Shown piece after piece: positions 2,096 through 17,110 of a DNA stretch of 64,000 nt (its first letter is position 1; every line of letters starts with the position of its first letter). The notes below the pieces were generated by a model. That model was not told where the DNA came from and searched no databases. It saw only the letters and a program-made list of their open reading frames with translations. Both the position numbers and the translations under genes were made by a program. The DNA comes from Phycisphaerae bacterium (lineage in GTDB: Bacteria > Planctomycetota > Phycisphaerae > UBA1845 > Fen-1342): positions 124,001 through 188,000 of the forward strand of contig JANQNU010000060.1 in NCBI GenBank assembly GCA_028279405.1, written 5' to 3'.

Positions 2096-2350
2096 TCAGG
2101 CGCACGTGGTGCGCGGCAGGGGGCCGAGTACGTTGACGGTCCGAACATCCGCCAGGTTCGCAATATGGTTCTGCAGCACCGTCGGGCAACGCGCTCCGTC
2201 GACGCACAAATCGACGTGGTATGCGTGCCGTTGTTCGTCATGCAGCGCGCTCAGCGCGGTCACGGTAAAGCCCCGTCGTCGGACAACGCCGAGCAGTCGC
2301 TGCAAGGCGGCCGGCTCGGACGACAAATAGACATCGAAATGGGCACTCAT
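2096..2350 (-). CDS. ilvM: Acetolactate synthase small (regulatory) subunit, IlvM-type
   Basis: This 84-residue protein is one ACT domain: an N-terminal strand, then LQRLLGVVRRRGFTVTALSA, then VDLCVDG. Its length and helix motif match enterobacterial IlvM (about 87 residues) rather than the longer IlvN/IlvH subunits. It would bind and activate the catalytic subunit encoded just upstream. Its ATG overlaps the ilvG stop by four bases (ATGA), which suggests translational coupling and 1:1 synthesis. Assignment rests on fold pattern and position, since ACT domains diverge quickly. Confidence 0.85.
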   Translation of the reverse strand: MSAHFDVYLSSEPAALQRLLGVVRRRGFTVTALSALHDEQRHAYHVDLCVDGARCPTVLQNHIANLADVRTVNVLGPLPRTTCA

Positions 2351-4074
2351 GGGTGAACTCCTTCGCGCGGCGGCGTGGCGCGGGAAGCCGCGCCGGCCGG
2401 ACGATTGTGGTCGGCGTACGTTTGGCGTTGTGGGTCGAGCATCTGCGTGTTGTCGGCGCCAGGCGGCACGAGCGGCCAGACGTTCGCCGCGCGATCGATT
2501 CGCGCGTGCAGAAGCATCGGACCCGGCGTATGTAACAGCGCGTGAAGTGCGTCCGGCACTTCGTCGGCGCGGGAGATCGACCGTGCCGGGATCCCGAACG
2601 CGCGCGAGATCTCGCCGAAGTCCGGATTGTCCGACAGATCAACGGCGCTCTCGCGATTCCGAAAGAACAGCTCCTGCCACTGCCGCACCATTCCCAGCGC
2701 GCTGTTGTCCAGGAGCAGGATCTTTACCGGCAGCGCATAGCGCTGAATCGTTGCCAATTCCTGAATGTTCATCATGATCGATCCGTCACCGGTAACGTTG
2801 ATCACCGTCGCAGCCGGCAATGCTGCCTGGACACCGATGGCTGCCGGCAGACCGAACCCCATCGATCCCAGCCCGCCGCTGGTCAGGTGGCGGCGCGGAT
2901 GCCGGAACGCGTAGTGCTGCGCTACCCACATCTGATGCTGCCCGACATCACAGCAGATAAAGGTCTCGTCGTCGGCCATCGCGGAAAGGTCGCGCAACAG
3001 GCGCGGCGCGTAGATCGCCTCGAACGGCGCGTCATAACGGAACGCGAACCGCGCTTTATCAGCCAGGCATTGACGGCGCCAGGAATCGATCTCGGGCGTG
3101 GACGTCAGTGCATCCAGTGCAGCGGTCAGATCGCCGCGCAGTGCGACCGTCGGCGTACGCAGCTTTCCCAGTTCGGCCGGGTCGATGTCCATATGAAGGA
3201 CGGCGGCTTCGGGGGCAAAAGCGGACAGTTTGCCGGTCGCGCGATCGTCGAAGCGCACACCGACCCCGATCAGCAGGTCGCAGGCGTGTACGGCACGGTT
3301 GGCCGCTTGCGTGCCGTGCATCCCAAGCATCCCCAGGAACAACTCGTTGTCACCGGCAACGGCGCCCAGCCCCTGGAGCGTATGGACCGTCGGCAGGCCC
3401 GCGGTGTGCACGAATCGGCGGAGCGCCTCCACCGCCTCGGCCTTTGCCACGCCACCACCGGCGTAGACCACGGGACGCCGCGCGCGCTGCAGCAGCCCTC
3501 GCGCTGCTTCCAGTTGCTTCGGATCCGGCGGCGGTGGACGCCGCTCGCAGCTTGGGCCGTCAATCGGCAACGCGTGCGTATCGGCGAGTGCCACGTCCTT
3601 TGGGAGGTCGATCACCACCGGACCCGGTCGGCCGTGGTGGGCGCGATCGAAAGCGTCGCGAACGACCGTCGGGATGTCGTCCACGTTCGCGATCAGATAG
3701 CTGTGCTTGACGATCGGCATGGTGATGCCAAGCACGTCGACTTCCTGAAAGGCGTCCGTGCCGAGCAGCGTGCTGGGCACCTGGCCCGTGATCGCCACGA
3801 TCGGGACCGAGTCCATCATCGCGTCGGCGATGCCCGTGATCAGGTTGGTTGCTCCGGGCCCGGACGTCGCGATGCATACGCCGACCGCGCCCGTACTGCG
3901 TGCGAAACCCTGGGCGGCGAAGACGGCACCCTGCTCGTGCCGCGTCAGGTAGTGGCGGATCGGCGAATCGAGCAGCGCGTCGTAGACGGGCATGATCGCC
4001 CCGCCCGGGTAGCCCCAGACGCGCTCGACCCTCTCGCGCTCGAGACAGCGAATCAGGAGTTGTGCACCGTTCAT
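2347..4074 (-). CDS. ilvG: Acetolactate synthase large (catalytic) subunit, IlvG-like
   Basis: This ThDP/FAD enzyme makes acetolactate and acetohydroxybutyrate. The 575 residues show the N-terminal pyrimidine-binding domain (GYPGGAIMPVYDAL, catalytic Glu47 in RHEQGA), the central domain, and the C-terminal ThDP domain with DVGQHQMWVAQHY and GDGSIMMNIQEL. The sequence near NVWPLVPPGADN resembles the IlvG branch. The chosen ATG at 4074 overlaps the ilvC stop (ATGA). The frame stays open further upstream, but that part lies inside ilvC. A Pro/Arg-rich tail follows the conserved end. Confidence 0.95.
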   Translation of the reverse strand: MNGAQLLIRCLERERVERVWGYPGGAIMPVYDALLDSPIRHYLTRHEQGAVFAAQGFARSTGAVGVCIATSGPGATNLITGIADAMMDSVPIVAITGQVPSTLLGTDAFQEVDVLGITMPIVKHSYLIANVDDIPTVVRDAFDRAHHGRPGPVVIDLPKDVALADTHALPIDGPSCERRPPPPDPKQLEAARGLLQRARRPVVYAGGGVAKAEAVEALRRFVHTAGLPTVHTLQGLGAVAGDNELFLGMLGMHGTQAANRAVHACDLLIGVGVRFDDRATGKLSAFAPEAAVLHMDIDPAELGKLRTPTVALRGDLTAALDALTSTPEIDSWRRQCLADKARFAFRYDAPFEAIYAPRLLRDLSAMADDETFICCDVGQHQMWVAQHYAFRHPRRHLTSGGLGSMGFGLPAAIGVQAALPAATVINVTGDGSIMMNIQELATIQRYALPVKILLLDNSALGMVRQWQELFFRNRESAVDLSDNPDFGEISRAFGIPARSISRADEVPDALHALLHTPGPMLLHARIDRAANVWPLVPPGADNTQMLDPQRQTYADHNRPAGAASRATPPREGVHP

Positions 4075-5081
4075 GGAGTCGTACCCGCTTTCTGTCGCAG
4101 CCAGGCGAATCGCTGCCGCAGTGCCGCGCCGACCGTCTCGATCGGATGCGACAGGTCTTCGGCGAGCATTTCTGCATACAGTCGACCGCCGGCCGCATGT
4201 TCCGACTGCCATTCGCGGGCGAACGTGCCGTCCTGGATCTCCTGCAACACCCGGCGCATATTGCGACGCGTCTCCTCCGTGATGATTCGCCCGCCGCGCG
4301 AGAGATCGCCGTATTTCGCCGTATCGCTGACGAACTCGTGCATGCGCGCCAGCCCGCCGGCATAGATCAGGTCGACAATGAGCTTGAGCTCGTGAGCGCA
4401 CTCGAAGTACGCCAGCTGCGGGTCGTAGCCGGCGGACACAAGCGTCTCCCAACCGGCGCAGATCAGCTCCGTCACGCCGCCACAGAGCACGGCCTGCTCG
4501 CCGAACAGGTCGGTCTCGGTTTCTTCGCGGAACGTCGTCTCGAGCACGCCCGCGCGCGTTCCGCCGATCGCATGTGCGTAGGCCAGGGCGATTTCAGCCG
4601 CGCGGCCACTGGCATCCTGATGGACGGCGAATAGGCACGGGACACCGCAACCCGCCGTGAACTGGTCCCGAACGAGCGCGCCGGGGCCCTTCGGTGCGAC
4701 GAGCACGACGTCAACGCCGCCGGGCGGCGCGATGGCGCCGTAGTGAATGTTGAAGCCGTGGCTGAACAGGATTGCGGCTCCCGAACGCATGCTGGGCGCG
4801 ACATGCTGTCGATACACACCAGGCTGCTCCATGTCGGGAACGAGGAGGCAGACCACGTCGGCGTCTCGAACGGCGGTATCGACGGCGACCGGCTCCCACC
4901 CTTCCCGTTCGGCCTGTTCCCACGAGCGTCCGCCTGGACGTCCGCCGATGACGACGTCAACGCCGGCGTCGCGCAGGTTGAGGGCCTGTCCGCGTCCTTG
5001 GCTGCCATAGCCGATCACGGCGACGCGCCGGTCGCGGAGGATCTGGTGATTCACATCTGCTTCGCAGTAAAACGTTGTCAT
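4071..5081 (-). CDS. ilvC: Ketol-acid reductoisomerase, class I (short)
   Basis: The enzyme isomerises and reduces acetolactate/acetohydroxybutyrate to the dihydroxy acids with NADPH and Mg. At 336 residues it has the short class I length. GYGSQGRGQALNLRDAG (residues 24-40) is the nucleotide loop; the following GGRPGGRSWE region carries the basic/serine residues expected for NADPH. The C-terminal knotted domain holds the acidic metal ligands (TETDLFGEQAVL and FECAHELKLIVDL). It sits between ilvD (11-base gap) and ilvG (4-base overlap). Confidence 0.96.
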   Translation of the reverse strand: MTTFYCEADVNHQILRDRRVAVIGYGSQGRGQALNLRDAGVDVVIGGRPGGRSWEQAEREGWEPVAVDTAVRDADVVCLLVPDMEQPGVYRQHVAPSMRSGAAILFSHGFNIHYGAIAPPGGVDVVLVAPKGPGALVRDQFTAGCGVPCLFAVHQDASGRAAEIALAYAHAIGGTRAGVLETTFREETETDLFGEQAVLCGGVTELICAGWETLVSAGYDPQLAYFECAHELKLIVDLIYAGGLARMHEFVSDTAKYGDLSRGGRIITEETRRNMRRVLQEIQDGTFAREWQSEHAAGGRLYAEMLAEDLSHPIETVGAALRQRFAWLRQKAGTTP

Positions 5082-5092
5082 TGGTGCCCTTC

Positions 5093-6778
5093 CTACATCA
5101 GGGACGTCGAGGTTTGGGTTAGCGCTGTCTGTGGCACCGGGCAGGTCGTCGCGCCCTCCGATGCTGAAGAAACGGTCGCGGCGTAGCGCGCCAGGACGCC
5201 GGTTCGATGGCGCGGTGCGGGCGGTGACCAGGATTCGCGCCGCGACACGAGGTCGGCCTCGACGTCGATGCGTCGCGCATGCACATCGATATGGATCGAA
5301 TCACCATCCCGCACCAGGGCCAACGGGCCACCGCTGGCCGCCTCGGGTGTCACGTGTCCCACGACGATGCCGTGCGTCGCGCCGCTGAAGCGGCCATCGG
5401 TAACGAGCGCTACACGATCGCCGAGCCCGGCACCGACGAGCGCAGCCGTCACAGCCAACATCTCGCGCATCCCGGGCCCGCCGCGGGGACCTTCATAGCG
5501 AATGATCAGGACGTCGCCCGCGCGGATCCGTCGCTGCTCGATTGCCTGGAAGCACTGTTCTTCGCAGTCGAAGACACGCGCCGGACCAGTGAACGCTGCC
5601 GGACAGTTGCGCGCTACCTTCATCACGGCGCCCTCCGGAGCGAGCGAGCCGCGCAGGACAGCGAAGTGGCCTCCCGCCTGGAGCGGCGCGTTTGCCGGAC
5701 GAACCACCTGCTGGCCATGAGGTTCGATCGCTTCCGACGCCTCGGCGATGATCGACCGTCCGCTCACGGTCAGGCTCTCCTGCAGCATTTTCAACTCGGC
5801 CAGGCGACGCAGAACGAGTCGCGTGCCGCCGGCCGCGTGGAGATCGACCGCGGTGAATCGACCGCTCGGCTTGAGATCCGCCAGCACCGGCGTTCCGGCA
5901 CTGATCGCCTCGATATCGTCGAGATCGAACGCCAGGCCGGCCTCGCGCGCGATTGCGAGCAAGTGCAACACGGCGTTCGTGGAGCCGCCGGTGAGCGCCA
6001 CTGCGGCAGTCGCGTTCTGCATGGCGGCCGGCGTCATGATGCGCCGCGCCGTCAGATCACGTCGAATCAGCTCGAGCACCGTCCGACCGGCATCGAAAGC
6101 GGCTGTCGACCGGTCTTCGTGGGTTGCCGGTAAGTCACTGGAAAACGGTGCAATTCCGAGTGCCGCGGCTGCCGTTGCCATGGTGTTCGCGGTGAATTGT
6201 CCGCCGCACGCGCCGGCGCCCGGGCACGCGGCGCATTCGATGCGAGTCAGCGTCGCGTCGCTGATCGTTCCTCGCGCATGACCGCCGACGGCCTCGAACA
6301 CATCCTGTATCGTGATGGTCCGTCCGTCGTGATGGCCCGGCTGAATCGAACCGCCATAGAGCATCAACCCCGGCAGATCGAGCCGCGCCAGCGCTTGAAT
6401 AGTGCCCGCAACCGTCTTGTCACAGCCGGAGATCGCGATCACACCGTCAAAACAGTGCCCGCGAACCGCCAGTTCAATGGAATCCGCGATGGTCTCGCGG
6501 CTGATGAGCGAGCAGCGCATCCCGTCAGTGCCCATCGCGATGCCGTCCGTTACGACGATCGTGTTGAACTCGATCGGAACCCCGCCCGCCGCCCGGATCC
6601 CGCGCTTTACGTGCTCGGCCAGCGTCCGCAGGTGCAGGTTGCAAGGCGTGACCTCGGCCCAGGTGTTGAGGATCGCGACGAACGGCTTGCCGAAGTCCTC
6701 GTCATTCAGACCGGCGGCCCGAAGCATGGCGCGCGCCGGCGCCCGCTGTGGACCGGTTTTGATGGCGTCTGATCGCAT
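5093..6778 (-). CDS. ilvD: Dihydroxy-acid dehydratase
   Basis: This Fe-S dehydratase carries out the third common step of Ile/Val synthesis. Cluster-ligand motifs are [17 protein letters not shown] and [20 protein letters not shown], with the family motifs [17 protein letters not shown] and GRFSGATHG further on. At 561 residues it is typical of the shorter IlvD proteins. I place the start at ATG 6778, preceded by AGGGAG at 6787-6792. The frame stays open upstream, but only across the leader/terminator region. It is the first structural gene after the attenuator. Confidence 0.96.
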
Positions 6779-6795: not shown

Positions 6796-6830
6796 AAAAA
6801 AAAAGCCCGCACATCGTTTGATGTGCGGGC
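6796..6830 (-). terminator. Attenuator terminator in front of ilvD
   Basis: On the minus strand an 11-bp perfect stem, GCCCGCACATC (6830-6820) with GATGTGCGGGC (6815-6805), closes a 4-base AAAC loop and is followed by nine T residues (6804-6796). It lies between the leader peptide and the ilvD ribosome site, so it would stop transcription before the structural genes unless the alternative pairing forms. Confidence 0.93.
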
Positions 6831-6858
6831 CGCTGAAAATCTCGATCGTGTTGATCAG

Positions 6859-7011
6859 TTACGTCCCGCACACTCCCGTCGGTAGAATGACTACGACTAG
6901 TACGACGACGATAATGGTGCGGCACACAGACGCAGCAGTGATGGCGCGCAACGCGGACGACGCTCGGCGAGCGATCGCGAATCTTGAATTGTGTGCAGAA
7001 CCACCGATCAT
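6859..7011 (-). CDS. ilvL: ilv leader peptide (attenuation)
   Basis: The frame ends in TAA at 6861-6859. Codons 6915-6883 read [11 protein letters not shown], eleven consecutive Ile, Val or Leu codons with no interruption, followed by PTGVCGT. Such a run is what leader peptides of ilv attenuators carry, because ribosome stalling there senses charged tRNA-Ile/Val/Leu. The upstream in-frame ATG at 7011 gives 50 residues. It lies only about 9 bases past the -10 box, so translation is either leaderless or starts at an internal TTG or GTG; no Shine-Dalgarno is visible. Codons such as CTA and GTA are unusual for this GC-rich DNA. Confidence 0.85.
6865..6922 (-). promoter_or_regulatory. Competing RNA segments 1 and 2 of the ilv attenuator
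   Basis: Segment 1, CCGCAC (6922-6917), lies just before the Ile/Val codon run. Segment 2, TGTGCGGG (6872-6865), lies at the end of the leader frame. Segment 2 can pair with segment 1 through GTGCGG, or with CCCGCACA (6829-6822) in the 5' arm of the terminator. A ribosome stalled in the run would cover segment 1 and free segment 2 to form the antiterminator. The pairings are read directly from the sequence; the switching is inferred from the classical model. Confidence 0.75.
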
Positions 7012-7019
7012 AATTTGCT

Positions 7020-7048
7020 AAAATAGCGATCGTCCATTGAGATGTCAA
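7020..7048 (-). promoter_or_regulatory. Sigma70-type promoter of the ilv operon
   Basis: On the minus strand, TTGACA (7048-7043) and TATTTT (7025-7020) are separated by exactly 17 bases. The position just upstream of the leader peptide fits the start of the ilv transcript at about 7012. Confidence 0.8.
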
Positions 7049-7160: not shown

Positions 7161-7739
7161 ATGGAAGACTGGATCACGACCTCGACCATTCTGGCGCGGC
7201 TGCGGGGCGAGGGCGACGACGACATCTGGGAGCACTTCTGTCGGCGGTTCCACCGACCGATCGTCGGGTTCGCGCGCAGTCTGGGCCTGAACGAGTCCGA
7301 TGCCGCCGACGCCGCCCAGGAAACGCTGGTCAGCTTTCTATCCGCACTGCGCCGCGGCGGCTATGACCCGCAAAAAGGTCGGTTAAACAAGTGGCTGTTC
7401 GGGATCGCATACCGGAAAACGCTCGCTGCCCGCAGGAAGCGTCCCTTGGCGACTCCGAACGATACGGCCTCGGACCTGCTCGCCTCGATCCCGGACGAGT
7501 CCGTTGCCGAGCAGGCCTGGGATGAGGAGTGGGAGCGGGCCGTGGTGGAAACGTGCCTCGGCCGGGTCCGTGCGGAAGTGAACGATAAGACGTATGCGGC
7601 ATTTGAGCTGGTGGTCCGTCAGGGTGTTTCCGCGGACGCCGCCGCAGACCGTCTGGGTATGTCGCGGGCAGCGATCTATACCGCCAAACACCGCGTCCTA
7701 CGACGCGCCCGCGAACTCGCAGCGACCTTTGACGACTAG
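7161..7739 (+). CDS. ECF-type RNA polymerase sigma factor
   Basis: This 192-residue protein has region 2 (WEHFCRRFHRPIVGFARSLG, DAADAAQETLVSFLSAL, then KWLFGIAYRK for -10 recognition) and region 4 (a helix-turn-helix near SADAAADRLGMSRAAIYTAK). GGGAG at 7151-7155 sits 5 bases before the ATG. It would direct polymerase to an unknown regulon. It diverges from the ilv promoter and converges on the large kinase gene, with only 13 bases between the stops. The kinase starts with a zinc-finger segment like those of anti-sigma factors, so the two may act together; that link is inferred. Confidence 0.9.
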   Translation: MEDWITTSTILARLRGEGDDDIWEHFCRRFHRPIVGFARSLGLNESDAADAAQETLVSFLSALRRGGYDPQKGRLNKWLFGIAYRKTLAARRKRPLATPNDTASDLLASIPDESVAEQAWDEEWERAVVETCLGRVRAEVNDKTYAAFELVVRQGVSADAAADRLGMSRAAIYTAKHRVLRRARELAATFDD

Positions 7740-7752
7740 CCCGTGTCCATGC

Positions 7753-10700
7753 CTAATTCCGGCGCTCTGTCGCCGATCGACGCTCCTCCTCCAAGGCCTT
7801 CCATTCATCGATCCGTGCGCGCCAGGCCGCTGCGCGATCGGACCATTTTGCCTCGCGACAGAGTTCCAGGCACCGACGGGCCGTCGTCCGATTCGGTGCC
7901 GAAAGCGGACCGGAAGTGCCGACCAGCGCGTCGTAGACGGTATCGATCGTCTCGGCCGCATCCGTCGTGCGATCGGCTGCAAGCTGCATCTGTCCGAGCG
8001 TCAGGCGGGTACGGTGTGCCCAGGCGTGCCCCTCGCCGAACAGCTCGAGCCGAAGCTCGAGCACCTCGCAAAGTAGTTCAACCGCCTCCGGCGCACGTCC
8101 GCTGCGCTCGTAGACCAGCGCCAGCCGCTCCATGGTCGGGGCCAGTGTGCGTTTCGGGGGTCCGCCCTGGGAGCTTCGGAGGCCGTCGATCGCGCGCTCG
8201 TACTCCCGGATCGCGTCGGCGAGGTTACCGAGCTTGGCGTGTACGTTGGCCAGATTGGCGCGTGTGATCGCGATACTGCGGTCGTCGGCGCCGCGTGCCG
8301 TGCGCTCGGCGAGGACCTGTTCAAGCAGGGCCCGCGCCTCATCGAAGCGTCCTTGGCCGCTATACAGCGTCCCCAGGTTGTTCAGGTTCGTTAGATGATC
8401 CGGATGATCCGGACCGAGCGTCGCCTGGTCCAGGTCACGCGCCCGCAGGTACAGCTCTTCGGCACGTGCCCACTGTTTTTGTCGACGATAGACGCTCGCC
8501 AACGACTTGATCACCGCGATCGTGCGCACGTGTCGCTCGCCGACGGTCGCCAGACGGGCTTCGAGCGCCTCTTCCAGTAGTGTCGCCGCTTGATCGAGAC
8601 GTCCCAGATTGCCATAGACCGCCGCCAACGCACGCATGGTGTTCAGCGTGCCAAATGCCTGCTCACCAAGGACGCGTCGTCGCCCGGCGAGCGCCGGCTC
8701 TAGCATCTCGAGCGCCGCGCGTGGCCGGCGCGCGGCCGAGAGCGTCGCTCCGAGATTGTGCATGGCCTCCAGAGTCTTGGGGTGCTCGGGGCCCAGCATC
8801 CGCTCCCGCCCGGCGAGGATTTGCTGCCCGAGCTGCACAGCATCGGAGTAACGCCGTTGTCCCTGGTAGCATGCCGCCAATGTTGTCTGGTAGTACAGTG
8901 TCTTCGCGTTGTCCGGCCCCAGGCGTTCCTGTAGCTGCTCCACGGCCTCAACCAGCAAAGGCTCGGCGAGGTCGTACAATCCCTGACGGTTGTATGTTTC
9001 GCCGAGATTCCGCCTGGCCCCGATCGTCCGATGGTGGTCCGGCCCGTAGGCCCGCGAGAACCCTTCGAGCACGTCGCGCTGCTGCGCCGCCGCTTCTGCG
9101 TAGCGTCCGACACTCTTATAGAACAAGGCTAGCCCTGTGCGGTGAAACAGCGTGGAGACGTGTGCAGAGCCATGAACCCGTTCCATCTCCCGAACTGCGG
9201 CCTGGTAATGCGCCTCGGCCCGCTCGAGATCGCCAATCTCGCCGTAAACCCGACCCAACTGGGTCTCGAATCGGCAGATGAGATCCGCTGACGCCGTGCT
9301 TTTGCGGGCGCGCTCCAGACCGTCCTCGCAGAGCGCCGCCCGGCGTTCGGCGCCGCCCGTCTCGAAGATGGACTCGACGTACCGGCTGAGCGTGTCGAGC
9401 GTCTCGGGATGGTCCGGACCGAGCTTCCGTCGTCGACGTTCCAGGAGCTCGTGGAAGATTCGCTCCGCCTCGGCGCGCTCGCCGGCCAACAAGTGAACAC
9501 TCGCAATCCCGGCGCGGGCGCGCAGCACGTGTCCATCGTCATCATCGAATGCATCGCTCGCGACGGTGTGTGCGGCCCGAAAGTGCATCGCGCTCGACTC
9601 ATAGTCGCTGAGGCTCAAGTAGGCTTGGCCGAGCGCGTTGTGCAGGCGTGCGGCAACGGCAGGGGCGTCAGGAATCCCGTCCTGCAGCAGTCGCGCCGCA
9701 TCATCGAGGACGTCAACCACCCGCACGTCGCGTCCCATGTCCGCTGGATCGGAAGCGGTCAGCATGTCCGTAAGGAACGTGATGACCGACTCGGCCTCGT
9801 CGCGCGCCACCTCGGCGCGTTGTTGGGCACGCTCGGCCCGCGACTGCCCGTCCACCGCGGCACGCTCGGCACGTGTCGCACGCACGGCCTGCCAGGTAGC
9901 GACCGCAGTGGTCCCGGCCAACAGTGCGATCGCAACGACGCTCACGCCCACCAGTAATCGATGCCGACGGGCAAACTTGTACAACTGATAAGCCGCGGTC
10001 GGCGGCCGGGCCACGATCGGCTCGTCCATCAGGAACCGCTGAATATCACTGGAGAATTCGGCAACGGTGGCGTAGCGCCGTGCAGGGTCTTTCTCCAGCG
10101 CCTTGAGCACGATCAGTTCGAGATCCGTCGGCAACCCCGGCACGAGCGCGCGCGGTCGCATCGGCGGCGTCTCGCAGATCACCCGTAGTCGCTCGACAAG
10201 CGACCCGCGTCCCAACGCATAGGGGGCCTCACCCGTCAGCAACTCGAACAGGATCACCCCCAGCGAATACACATCCGTTCGCAGGTCGATGCCGTCGTAC
10301 GCGCCACCAGCCTGCTCCGGGCTCATGTAGCGCAGCGTCCCTTGGAGCCGTCCGGCCTCAGTCGATTGCTGCGACCCCTCGTCGTCGACAATCCGTGCCA
10401 GCCCGAAGTCCAGCACCTTGGGCGCGCCGTCACGTTCGACCAGAACGTTCGTAGGCTTCAGGTCGCGATGCAACACGCCGCGCTGATGCGCGTGCGCGAC
10501 GCCGGCACAGATAGCCCGAAAGAGCCGGATTCGCCCCGGCAGCGATGGACTGGCTTCCGTAACGTAGCGATCGAGTGTCTGACCACGCACGAGTTCCATT
10601 GCAAGGTAGCGGCGTCCGTCATGAGTGTGTCCCGCTCCGATGACGGTCGCGACTGCGGGGTGCCGCAAGCGCGCGAGGGCTGCGGCTTCCCTCTGGAACA

Positions 10701-11052
10701 AGCGAAAGGCGTACTCGCCGGACTCGGCCGCGTTGCCCAGCAACTTGATCGCGACCGAACGAGGCGGATCGAGTTGTCGCGCCTCGTAGACTACGCCCAT
10801 TCCGCCGCGGCCGATTTCGCTGACAACCTCGAACCCGTCGAGCGCCGGCATGGCGCGCGGTGTGGTGTGGCGCGTTCTCTCCGACAGCGCGCCTTGAACT
10901 CGACGTTCGAACGAGAGATTGGACCCCACTTGGGCGACGCGGTCGGCGCAGCTCGAGCAGGAACGCAGGTGCGCGTCGATCGAGTCGCGAATCGACGGCG
11001 CCGCAGCACCCGCCGCAAAACGCTCCAGATCTTCGACGGCTGGGCAATTCAT
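7753..11052 (-). CDS. Membrane Ser/Thr protein kinase with N-terminal zinc-finger and C-terminal TPR repeats
   Basis: The 1099-residue protein has four parts. Residues 3-35 carry Cys3, His28, Cys32 and Cys35, the HxxxCxxC pattern of zinc-binding anti-sigma domains. Residues ~74-345 are a Hanks-type kinase: glycine loop GRGGMGVV at 81-88, Lys103, HRD 195-197, DFG 215-217 and RYMSPEQ. A transmembrane helix covers 366-388. The rest is about a dozen 42-residue TPR_10/12-type repeats (for example LGPDHPDHLTNLNNLGTLY). All catalytic residues are present. This kinase-TM-TPR layout is abundant in planctomycetes. The TPRs lie on the far side of the membrane from the kinase and may sense or bind a partner. 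Confidence 0.92.
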   Translation of the reverse strand: MNCPAVEDLERFAAGAAAPSIRDSIDAHLRSCSSCADRVAQVGSNLSFERRVQGALSERTRHTTPRAMPALDGFEVVSEIGRGGMGVVYEARQLDPPRSVAIKLLGNAAESGEYAFRLFQREAAALARLRHPAVATVIGAGHTHDGRRYLAMELVRGQTLDRYVTEASPSLPGRIRLFRAICAGVAHAHQRGVLHRDLKPTNVLVERDGAPKVLDFGLARIVDDEGSQQSTEAGRLQGTLRYMSPEQAGGAYDGIDLRTDVYSLGVILFELLTGEAPYALGRGSLVERLRVICETPPMRPRALVPGLPTDLELIVLKALEKDPARRYATVAEFSSDIQRFLMDEPIVARPPTAAYQLYKFARRHRLLVGVSVVAIALLAGTTAVATWQAVRATRAERAAVDGQSRAERAQQRAEVARDEAESVITFLTDMLTASDPADMGRDVRVVDVLDDAARLLQDGIPDAPAVAARLHNALGQAYLSLSDYESSAMHFRAAHTVASDAFDDDDGHVLRARAGIASVHLLAGERAEAERIFHELLERRRRKLGPDHPETLDTLSRYVESIFETGGAERRAALCEDGLERARKSTASADLICRFETQLGRVYGEIGDLERAEAHYQAAVREMERVHGSAHVSTLFHRTGLALFYKSVGRYAEAAAQQRDVLEGFSRAYGPDHHRTIGARRNLGETYNRQGLYDLAEPLLVEAVEQLQERLGPDNAKTLYYQTTLAACYQGQRRYSDAVQLGQQILAGRERMLGPEHPKTLEAMHNLGATLSAARRPRAALEMLEPALAGRRRVLGEQAFGTLNTMRALAAVYGNLGRLDQAATLLEEALEARLATVGERHVRTIAVIKSLASVYRRQKQWARAEELYLRARDLDQATLGPDHPDHLTNLNNLGTLYSGQGRFDEARALLEQVLAERTARGADDRSIAITRANLANVHAKLGNLADAIREYERAIDGLRSSQGGPPKRTLAPTMERLALVYERSGRAPEAVELLCEVLELRLELFGEGHAWAHRTRLTLGQMQLAADRTTDAAETIDTVYDALVGTSGPLSAPNRTTARRCLELCREAKWSDRAAAWRARIDEWKALEEERRSATERRN

Positions 11053-15658: not shown

Positions 15659-17110
15659 ATGAGCTTTGACAACCGCGACAAGGCCCGGCGCTACAAGCCG
15701 CAGGATGGTGATACGCTCGAGGACATCGCCGCCCGGGAACGCGCCGGCGGGCGTGAGCTCACGCTGCAACAGTTGGCACGCTTCAACTGGGGAACCGACG
15801 ATCCGGATCAGATCAACGAGTTGATGCGCGACGAGCTCGGCTGCCGCAAGCGCGACGACGCCGGCAACTTCGTGATCGCGGACGACGATCGACCGCGAAA
15901 TCCGCTCCTGATTCCCGAGCCGTTTGCGCGACAGGGGTTGCCTGTCGATCGTGAGCATACGCTCCGCGTCCGGCGGAAGGCCTGCCCGCCGCAGTTCCTC
16001 GAGTGTTGCTCGATCCCGGGTATCACGTTCGAGTTCGACAAGTCCTTCATTCGTCCCAGCGTCGTGGGCGCGTTGAAAGAGCTGGAGGAGGCTGTCGGTC
16101 GTCATCCGGACGCGCGGGTCATGATTTTCGGTCACACGGACAAAGTCGGAAGCGACGCGTACAACAAGAGCCTCAGTGAACGCCGAGCCAAGAGCGTCTT
16201 TGCGTTCATTACGAACGACGTCGAGGCGTGGGAGCAGCTCTGCAGCCAGGAGGGATGGGGTACGAACGAAACAGATCAGATGCTGGCGGATCAGGGTTTC
16301 GACCGCGGCACACGGCCGGACGCCGTCCGGGAGTACCAGACCTCGCGCGGATTGACGGTTGACGGTTCCGTCGGACCCCAAACGCGCGCCCAGCTATTCA
16401 GCGACTATATGTCCGGCAAGCATGATCTCGCGCTGACGCCGGACCAGTTCATGGAGCCGCGGCATATGGGTTGCGGCGAGTTCAACCCGCAGGTCGCGAC
16501 GGACGCGGCCGAGGAACGCAATCGGCGTGTGACGTTCTTCCTTTTCCATCGCGAGCGTCTGCCAAATCTCCCCTGTGCGGCGGGCGATCTCGCGCCGTGT
16601 CAGCGACAGATGACCCCCGCGGCGCCACGGTTCAAGTCGTCGTTTCGATGCAGCTTTTTCGACAGTATCGCCGCCAAATGCCCGTGCGAAGGTGGCGACA
16701 CCAGGCAAGGCCGCGTCTGGATCGGCCTGCAACCGCTCTTTGAGGACGAGTTGCCGGAAGAGGCCACGATTCGAATCGAAGCATCCACCGGCGACGCGAT
16801 CGAGGAGCTCATCGAACGTGGCACGGACCACGGAGACGGACTCTTGTACTTTGCGCTGCCAAATCCGCTCGACGGCGTCGAATACCGCGTCACCCTGCGC
16901 AGCCGCGGCCAAGAGCCGCGCGTGCTGTTCGAGGGATGTCAGCTGTCGGAGTTCGTCCGTTGCCTGAACTCCCCGTCCGAAGTGCCGACCTACCCCGACG
17001 TGACACACGACGCCGTCCAGCACGACGACGAAGAGCCCTACGAAGATGGAGATTCCACGTCAGACCCCTACGAACTGGACGAGCTGGAATTCGGACCGAT
17101 CTATGGCTAG
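15659..17110 (+). CDS. LysM-like / OmpA-like / peptidoglycan-binding protein
   Basis: This 483-residue protein has a LysM-like N-terminal region (YKPQDGDTLEDIAARE, QQLARFNWGT). An OmpA C-terminal-type domain follows at about 121-185 (ITFEFDKSFIRPS, IFGHTDKVGS, SERRAKSVFAFI), then a PG_binding_1-like helix set at 215-250 (DAVREYQTSRGLTVDGSVGP). Several Cys-containing blocks follow (MGCGEFNP, FRCSFFDS, KCPCEGG). The C-terminus is acidic. OmpA-like domains bind the diaminopimelate of peptidoglycan. There is no signal peptide, so export would need another route. The family occurs beside contact-secretion genes in myxobacteria, to my recollection. Confidence 0.8.
   Translation: MSFDNRDKARRYKPQDGDTLEDIAARERAGGRELTLQQLARFNWGTDDPDQINELMRDELGCRKRDDAGNFVIADDDRPRNPLLIPEPFARQGLPVDREHTLRVRRKACPPQFLECCSIPGITFEFDKSFIRPSVVGALKELEEAVGRHPDARVMIFGHTDKVGSDAYNKSLSERRAKSVFAFITNDVEAWEQLCSQEGWGTNETDQMLADQGFDRGTRPDAVREYQTSRGLTVDGSVGPQTRAQLFSDYMSGKHDLALTPDQFMEPRHMGCGEFNPQVATDAAEERNRRVTFFLFHRERLPNLPCAAGDLAPCQRQMTPAAPRFKSSFRCSFFDSIAAKCPCEGGDTRQGRVWIGLQPLFEDELPEEATIRIEASTGDAIEELIERGTDHGDGLLYFALPNPLDGVEYRVTLRSRGQEPRVLFEGCQLSEFVRCLNSPSEVPTYPDVTHDAVQHDDEEPYEDGDSTSDPYELDELEFGPIYG

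Follow-up and report, generated by a model that had tools for sequence, protein, structure and literature searches.

The attenuators of the enterobacterial ilvGMEDA (ilvL) and ilvBN operons, whose layout in E. coli we used for comparison, combine a leader bearing a run of isoleucine, valine and leucine codons, competing hairpins, and a terminator before the first structural gene of the matching pathway. Leader peptides have been described in Proteobacteria, Actinobacteria and Firmicutes (PMC2965389, PMC1262725, PMC9413887); according to a 2010 survey, which added the Firmicutes, such systems had until then been known only from the first two phyla (PMC2965389). Two of the described systems, C. 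glutamicum ilvBNC (PMC11857589) and Sinorhizobium trpL (PMC7298713), have transcripts that start at the leader ATG or one nucleotide before it, control codons that match the product of the operon, and a terminator paired with an antiterminator. For planctomycetes, the accessible part of one study counts leader genes by distance alone and assigns no amino-acid attenuation to them (PMC4833913), and we found no description of an attenuator from this phylum in open-licence papers, in agreement with the initial annotation of this DNA, which knew of no described case.

The locus presented here lies on the minus strand of the window, the whole 64-kb stretch of planctomycete DNA that was analysed. It shares with the enterobacterial systems the codon run, the competing hairpins, the position of the terminator and the pathway, and differs from them in its host and in its gene order, ilvD-ilvC-ilvG-ilvM-ilvA-leuA-leuC-leuD-leuB. 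The initial annotation had read it as a complete ilv attenuator, a reading that our analysis upholds: all parts stand in the right order and geometry before the matching pathway and are conserved with the operon. We estimate at roughly 0.9 the probability that the feature is, like those of ilvGMEDA and ilvBN, a ribosome-mediated transcription attenuator, its function being predicted from a leader codon run, a terminator, an antiterminator, a 1:2 pairing and a suitable stall geometry. This would extend ribosome-mediated attenuation, in itself a known mechanism, to the Planctomycetota, for which it seems to be undescribed.

Direct reading of the minus strand gives a sigma-70-type promoter at 7020-7048, with TTGACA at 7048-7043, a 17-nt spacer and TATTTT at 7025-7020 (10 of 12 consensus matches; shuffle p 0.01). 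The leader ORF, ilvL, occupies 6859-7011 and has 50 codons; its ATG at 7011 is in frame and lies 8 nt 3' of the -10 box, with no Shine-Dalgarno sequence found upstream. Eleven consecutive Ile/Val/Leu codons follow at 6915-6883 (ATT ATC GTC GTC GTA CTA GTC GTA GTC ATT CTA), and the frame ends at a TAA codon at 6861-6859. Promoter, codon run and stop had all been proposed earlier, and each was recovered at the same place; the leader start and the antiterminator described below are additions to that description. The run exceeds chance: it is the longest of its kind over the six frames of the 64-kb window, where the runner-up has 8 codons, and no run of at least 11 was obtained in 120 Markov-simulated windows (order 2 and 5), in which the maximum was 8. 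A scan for Ile/Leu/Val-rich leaders followed by a terminator returned this single match within the window. Both leucine codons of the run are CTA, a codon that makes up 2.3% of the Leu codons in the operon; the leu attenuator of Salmonella likewise uses CUA for control (PMC1183508).

Downstream of the leader an intrinsic terminator is predicted at 6796-6831, with a 12-bp stem, a 4-nt loop and a stability of about -23.2 kcal/mol. Its stem consists of 11 perfect base pairs, GCCCGCACATC/GATGTGCGGGC, and a terminal G-U, closed by the loop AAAC and followed by nine T at 6804-6796, so that the perfect 11-bp hairpin with nine T seen earlier is borne out. The ilvD start noted after it is likewise in place, with the ATG at 6778, 17 nt from the T tract. 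So short a distance, together with the fact that intergenic terminators are common, would suit a plain terminator that ends an upstream or antisense transcript and lies beside a fortuitous hydrophobic micro-ORF, with the ilvD promoter lying downstream of the hairpin. We regard this as extremely unlikely: the interval 6796-6778 is too short to hold a promoter, the upstream gene (7161-7739) is on the opposite strand so that the hairpin ends no neighbouring gene, the codon run exceeds chance, and the leader-terminator unit precedes ilvD in many taxa.

Alternative pairings are predicted around this terminator. Region 1 (6991-7010) includes the leader start, and region 2 (6865-6873), GUGUGCGGG, lies within the last leader codons and repeats the terminator 3' arm; region 3 (6821-6829), CCCGCACAU, is the terminator 5' arm, which can pair with region 2 or with region 4. 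The duplicate, GTGTGCGGG at 6873-6865, would pair with the 5' arm as an antiterminator of 9 bp and about -21.6 kcal/mol. The pairings 1:2, 2:3 and 3:4 are all predicted, 2:3 being mutually exclusive with each of the other two; the 1:2 pairing, an anti-antiterminator, forms part of the lowest-energy structure predicted for the complete leader RNA (-82 kcal/mol, z -2.98). Rfam covariance models gave no leader or riboswitch family at threshold for the ilv leader, where the best match scored 20 bits against a cut-off of 59, while a tRNA elsewhere in the window did reach threshold; a T-box or another regulator described in Rfam was rejected on this basis.

A simulated ribosome was placed codon by codon on the leader and the RNA refolded, a procedure that tests geometry only. 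A ribosome stalled anywhere from the first to the ninth codon of the run leaves an antiterminator of -21.6 kcal/mol or better as long as region 4 is still to be made; one codon further on, at the tenth, the antiterminator stands at -19.6 kcal/mol, at the eleventh and last it drops to -10.6 kcal/mol, and at the stop codon to -1.9 kcal/mol, where the terminator (-23.2) alone remains. At equilibrium the terminator outcompetes the antiterminator in every simulated ribosome state, and the switch must therefore be kinetic, as the choice between hairpins is in known attenuators.

From these elements we infer the transcription start, the translation, the stalling and the amino-acid response of the leader. 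RNA polymerase would start about 1-3 nt 5' of the leader ATG, and a ribosome would initiate at the 5' end without a Shine-Dalgarno sequence. Under a shortage of charged Ile-, Val- or Leu-tRNA, the ribosome would stall in the run at 6915-6883, leaving region 2 free to pair with region 3 once that is made; the terminator would be blocked and the nine-gene ilv-leu operon transcribed. With charged tRNA in ample supply, the ribosome would reach the TAA at 6861-6859 and cover region 2, regions 3 and 4 would form the terminator, and transcription would stop before ilvD. A leader left untranslated would pair its regions 1 and 2, and the terminator would again form.

The start proposed for transcription follows from a spacing that recurs elsewhere. 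Of 22 ilv and his attenuators considered jointly, 20 have a leader that begins 6-10 nt 3' of the -10 box and lacks a Shine-Dalgarno sequence; these 22 are those whose promoter is clear (shuffle p up to 0.15), the set contains several close Wenzhouxiangella copies, and the leader start was taken as the first in-frame start following the best promoter. At such a distance transcription should begin at or just before the ATG, and most of these leaders, the window's included, are probably leaderless mRNAs. Precedents are C. glutamicum ilvL (PMC11857589) and S. meliloti trpL, whose RNA rnTrpL begins with ATG (PMC7298713); their operons are different ones, and their leader sequences are unrelated to that of the window. 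With respect to enterobacterial ilvL, the planctomycete leader thus differs in being probably leaderless and in its longer N-terminal part.

The three amino acids of the leader are the products of the pathway encoded downstream, where nine genes run in a single direction on the minus strand. Dihydroxy-acid dehydratase, IlvD (5093-6778), matches NCBIfam TIGR00110 and NF002068 above cut-off and is followed by the ketol-acid reductoisomerase gene ilvC (4071-5081; NCBIfam NF004017, TIGR00465), by ilvG for an acetolactate synthase large subunit of the PRK08978 type (2347-4074; NCBIfam NF006524, TIGR00118), which overlaps the ilvC stop codon, and by an ilvM-like gene for a small subunit of 84 aa with an ACT domain (2096-2350, or 16097-16351 of the extended locus L110; Pfam PF13710). 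Threonine ammonia-lyase, ilvA (437-2080), was assigned from an NCBIfam match of E 1.6e-105 that is below the curated cut-off, and the start of leuA (1-423) from Pfam matches; leuA-leuC-leuD-leuB extend past the left edge of the window, as Pfam matches in L110 indicate. The gene upstream of the attenuator, at 7161-7739 on the strand opposite to the operon, encodes an ECF sigma factor. Adjoining it, at 7753-11052, is a large protein kinase-TPR fusion with a Ser/Thr kinase domain and an FxSxx-type TPR part.

The assembly has 5.6 Mb in 92 contigs (95.5% complete, 0.94% contaminated), and its 16S carries a perfect target site for EUB338-II, which we take to mark planctomycetes. The prs gene on the window's contig is 69-76% identical to those of the family and at most 64% identical to those of the rest of the order. 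By these sequence markers the host is a planctomycete. Misassembly or contamination of the contig was considered and rejected, given the grouping of prs with the host family, the planctomycete-like 16S and the similar GC of operon (0.65) and flanks (0.625).

The PF00920 domain (N-terminal part of IlvD) was absent from all 26 other family genomes searched. A strong ilvC match was present in 23 of 27 family genomes, host included; outside the operon, the host genome contains another ilvC, of native type. In a family without detectable ilvD, either Val/Ile synthesis is incomplete or another dehydratase performs the step. One family genome, G004, has at the end of contig C156 (L129, 1-219) a C-terminal ilvD fragment 53% identical to the window's, and this member may also carry the operon.

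Among related planctomycete loci, the leader-terminator unit was found nowhere in 614 kb of ilv loci of the family and order (partly overlapping loci, with both strands counted); the other members of the family have no attenuator because the operon is absent there. A phylum-wide search of 392 genomes recovered, in four other planctomycete families (f22, f87, f59 and f45), IlvD proteins 57-68% identical to the window's, always with ilvC and then ilvG downstream. All five such loci with upstream DNA (L188, L189, L190, L192 and L195) have an Ile/Leu/Val leader and a terminator, and two further loci with the window-type operon, L191 and L197, are cut by contig ends; no leader was found before planctomycete IlvD of other types (families f65, f78, f24, f61, f80 and f11). 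The search upstream of ilvD in relatives that had been suggested as a check thus shows codon run and hairpin kept in operon-bearing planctomycetes of four other families, against the lack of conservation that had been named as refuting the reading. In named genomes, the unit stands directly before ilvD in the Phycisphaerae MAG SAT56 (L030) and in 21 other loci, all except one from Xanthomonadales, Wenzhouxiangella, other Proteobacteria or Alphaproteobacteria (20 proteobacterial). As judged from these loci, the arrangement is kept wherever the operon and DNA upstream of it are present, and the attenuator travels with the operon.

The competing structures were compared in a swap test over 25 loci, thinned of most near-copies, in which each locus's own 2:3 pairing averaged -18.7 kcal/mol and swapped pairings -15.5 kcal/mol (0 of 20,000 permutations). 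For the planctomycete loci alone (n=7) the difference was not significant (p = 0.16). The 2:3 helix of SAT56 is weak, its own pairing coming 16th among the 25 and being surpassed by that of an upstream control stretch.

The homologous ilvD-C-G operons of Wenzhouxiangella, Lysobacterales and some Alphaproteobacteria have attenuators with the same promoter-to-ATG distance, the same leader layout (a long N-terminus, the run, and a Gly-rich end encoding region 2) and the same CCCGC-type terminator arm as the window's. Their runs are rich in Leu, whereas the window's is dominated by Val, and ilvA, present in the window's operon, was undetected between ilvG and leuA in the proteobacterial loci compared. 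This leader layout bears on the possibility of a main role in trans for the leader peptide or the short attenuated RNA, like that of Sinorhizobium peTrpL and rnTrpL (PMC7298713), with attenuation secondary. The leader is indeed long, at 50 codons, its N-terminal part, of about 32 residues up to the run, is variable, each termination event would release a stable short RNA, and S. meliloti rnTrpL likewise begins with ATG. However, the N-terminal part has no visible conservation between distant loci, where only the Ile/Leu/Val run and the Gly-rich end encoding region 2 are conserved, and we consider a main role in trans highly improbable.

Attenuation in this host would not be confined to ilv. 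The genome-wide search for codon runs in the host covered His codons only, and found a leader, MEMKRNMFHLGHHHHHHHPR*, followed by a terminator upstream of hisG (L137, about 1466-1590; G000:C23:148283-148407). In all seven family genomes with the host-type HisG (L152-L157 among the loci), a His-rich leader with a terminator-like hairpin is present. Further planctomycete hisG loci (L220-L245) have a His-rich leader ORF in 22 of 29 cases and a terminator too in 18 of 29, while among 4000 random planctomycete stretches a His-rich leader occurred in 2.3% and leader plus terminator in none. The hisG attenuators span 11 planctomycete families, the host's and 10 others. At the hisG locus, Rfam gave His_leader and Thr_leader matches only below threshold. 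The principle is the same as in the His-leader attenuators of Firmicutes and gammaproteobacteria (PMC9413887, PMC2965389), two papers in which planctomycetes are unmentioned. Judged from these loci, the ilv case belongs to a wider use of attenuation in Planctomycetota.

In the IlvD tree, all attenuator-bearing sequences fall in one clade of 39 rows (support 98/93), and the order's own ilvD types fall outside it. Within this clade f87 is basal, the window, f22 and SAT56 form one group (100/99), and f59 and f45 are sister to the Pseudomonadota. The window's IlvD belongs with the proteobacterial-type ilvD-C-G set by its shared clade, its ilvD-ilvC-ilvG order and its leader directly upstream. The ilvC and ilvG trees, for which the loci were found mostly via ilvD and the sampling is biased, likewise set the window's genes apart from those native to the order. 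By these trees the operon is foreign to the host family, and they indicate that it has moved between phyla together with its attenuator, in one direction or the other. The ilv case would then be one in which a regulator moves with its operon and keeps its competing RNA structures.

A foreign operon could have brought along an attenuator that is now an inactive relic in this host, which would fit both the gene trees and the 26 other family genomes without a PF00920 domain. Yet the 11-codon run, both alternative pairings, the promoter and the nine-T tract are all intact, and they have been kept in spite of a divergence that leaves IlvD at most 68% identical to any relative found. The host also retains an independent and complete his attenuator, so that the machinery of attenuation is probably in use. 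We therefore think a relic very unlikely and favour an attenuator that probably functions in its present host.

A simple import from gammaproteobacteria is weakened by the planctomycete families, which occupy the base of the attenuator clade as well as positions within it. It is possible, if doubtful, that attenuator-controlled operons are old and common in Planctomycetota (his attenuators are present in at least 11 families and ilv attenuators in at least 5) and that the ilvD-C-G operon of Xanthomonadales and Alphaproteobacteria came from planctomycete-like donors, not the reverse. Attenuation requires translation close behind transcription, and the conserved his and ilv attenuators would thus be genomic evidence for coupling in planctomycetes, where membrane-bounded compartments around the nucleoid have been claimed and disputed (PMC3660258). 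Were such attenuators indeed old and common, coupling would hold in a phylum whose cell organisation was once described as keeping the two processes apart.

Two further observations concern the named genomes. A MAG labelled Cyanobacteria (DS2.3.42; L031, 4700-5010) has the same ilvD-C-G operon with its attenuator; the bin may be mislabelled or mixed. Run over the other strand of the 80 named loci (802 kb), the scanner returned only three matches, all in alphaproteobacterial loci of the same set: L045, L052 and L105 have, on the minus strand opposite to ilvD (about 11384, 11487 and 6939 of the reverse strand), attenuators with Ile/Leu/Val leaders, of which the one in L052 is at the edge of the locus, the one in L045 is near an ilvC-like match and the one in L105 adjoins ilvC/ilvG.
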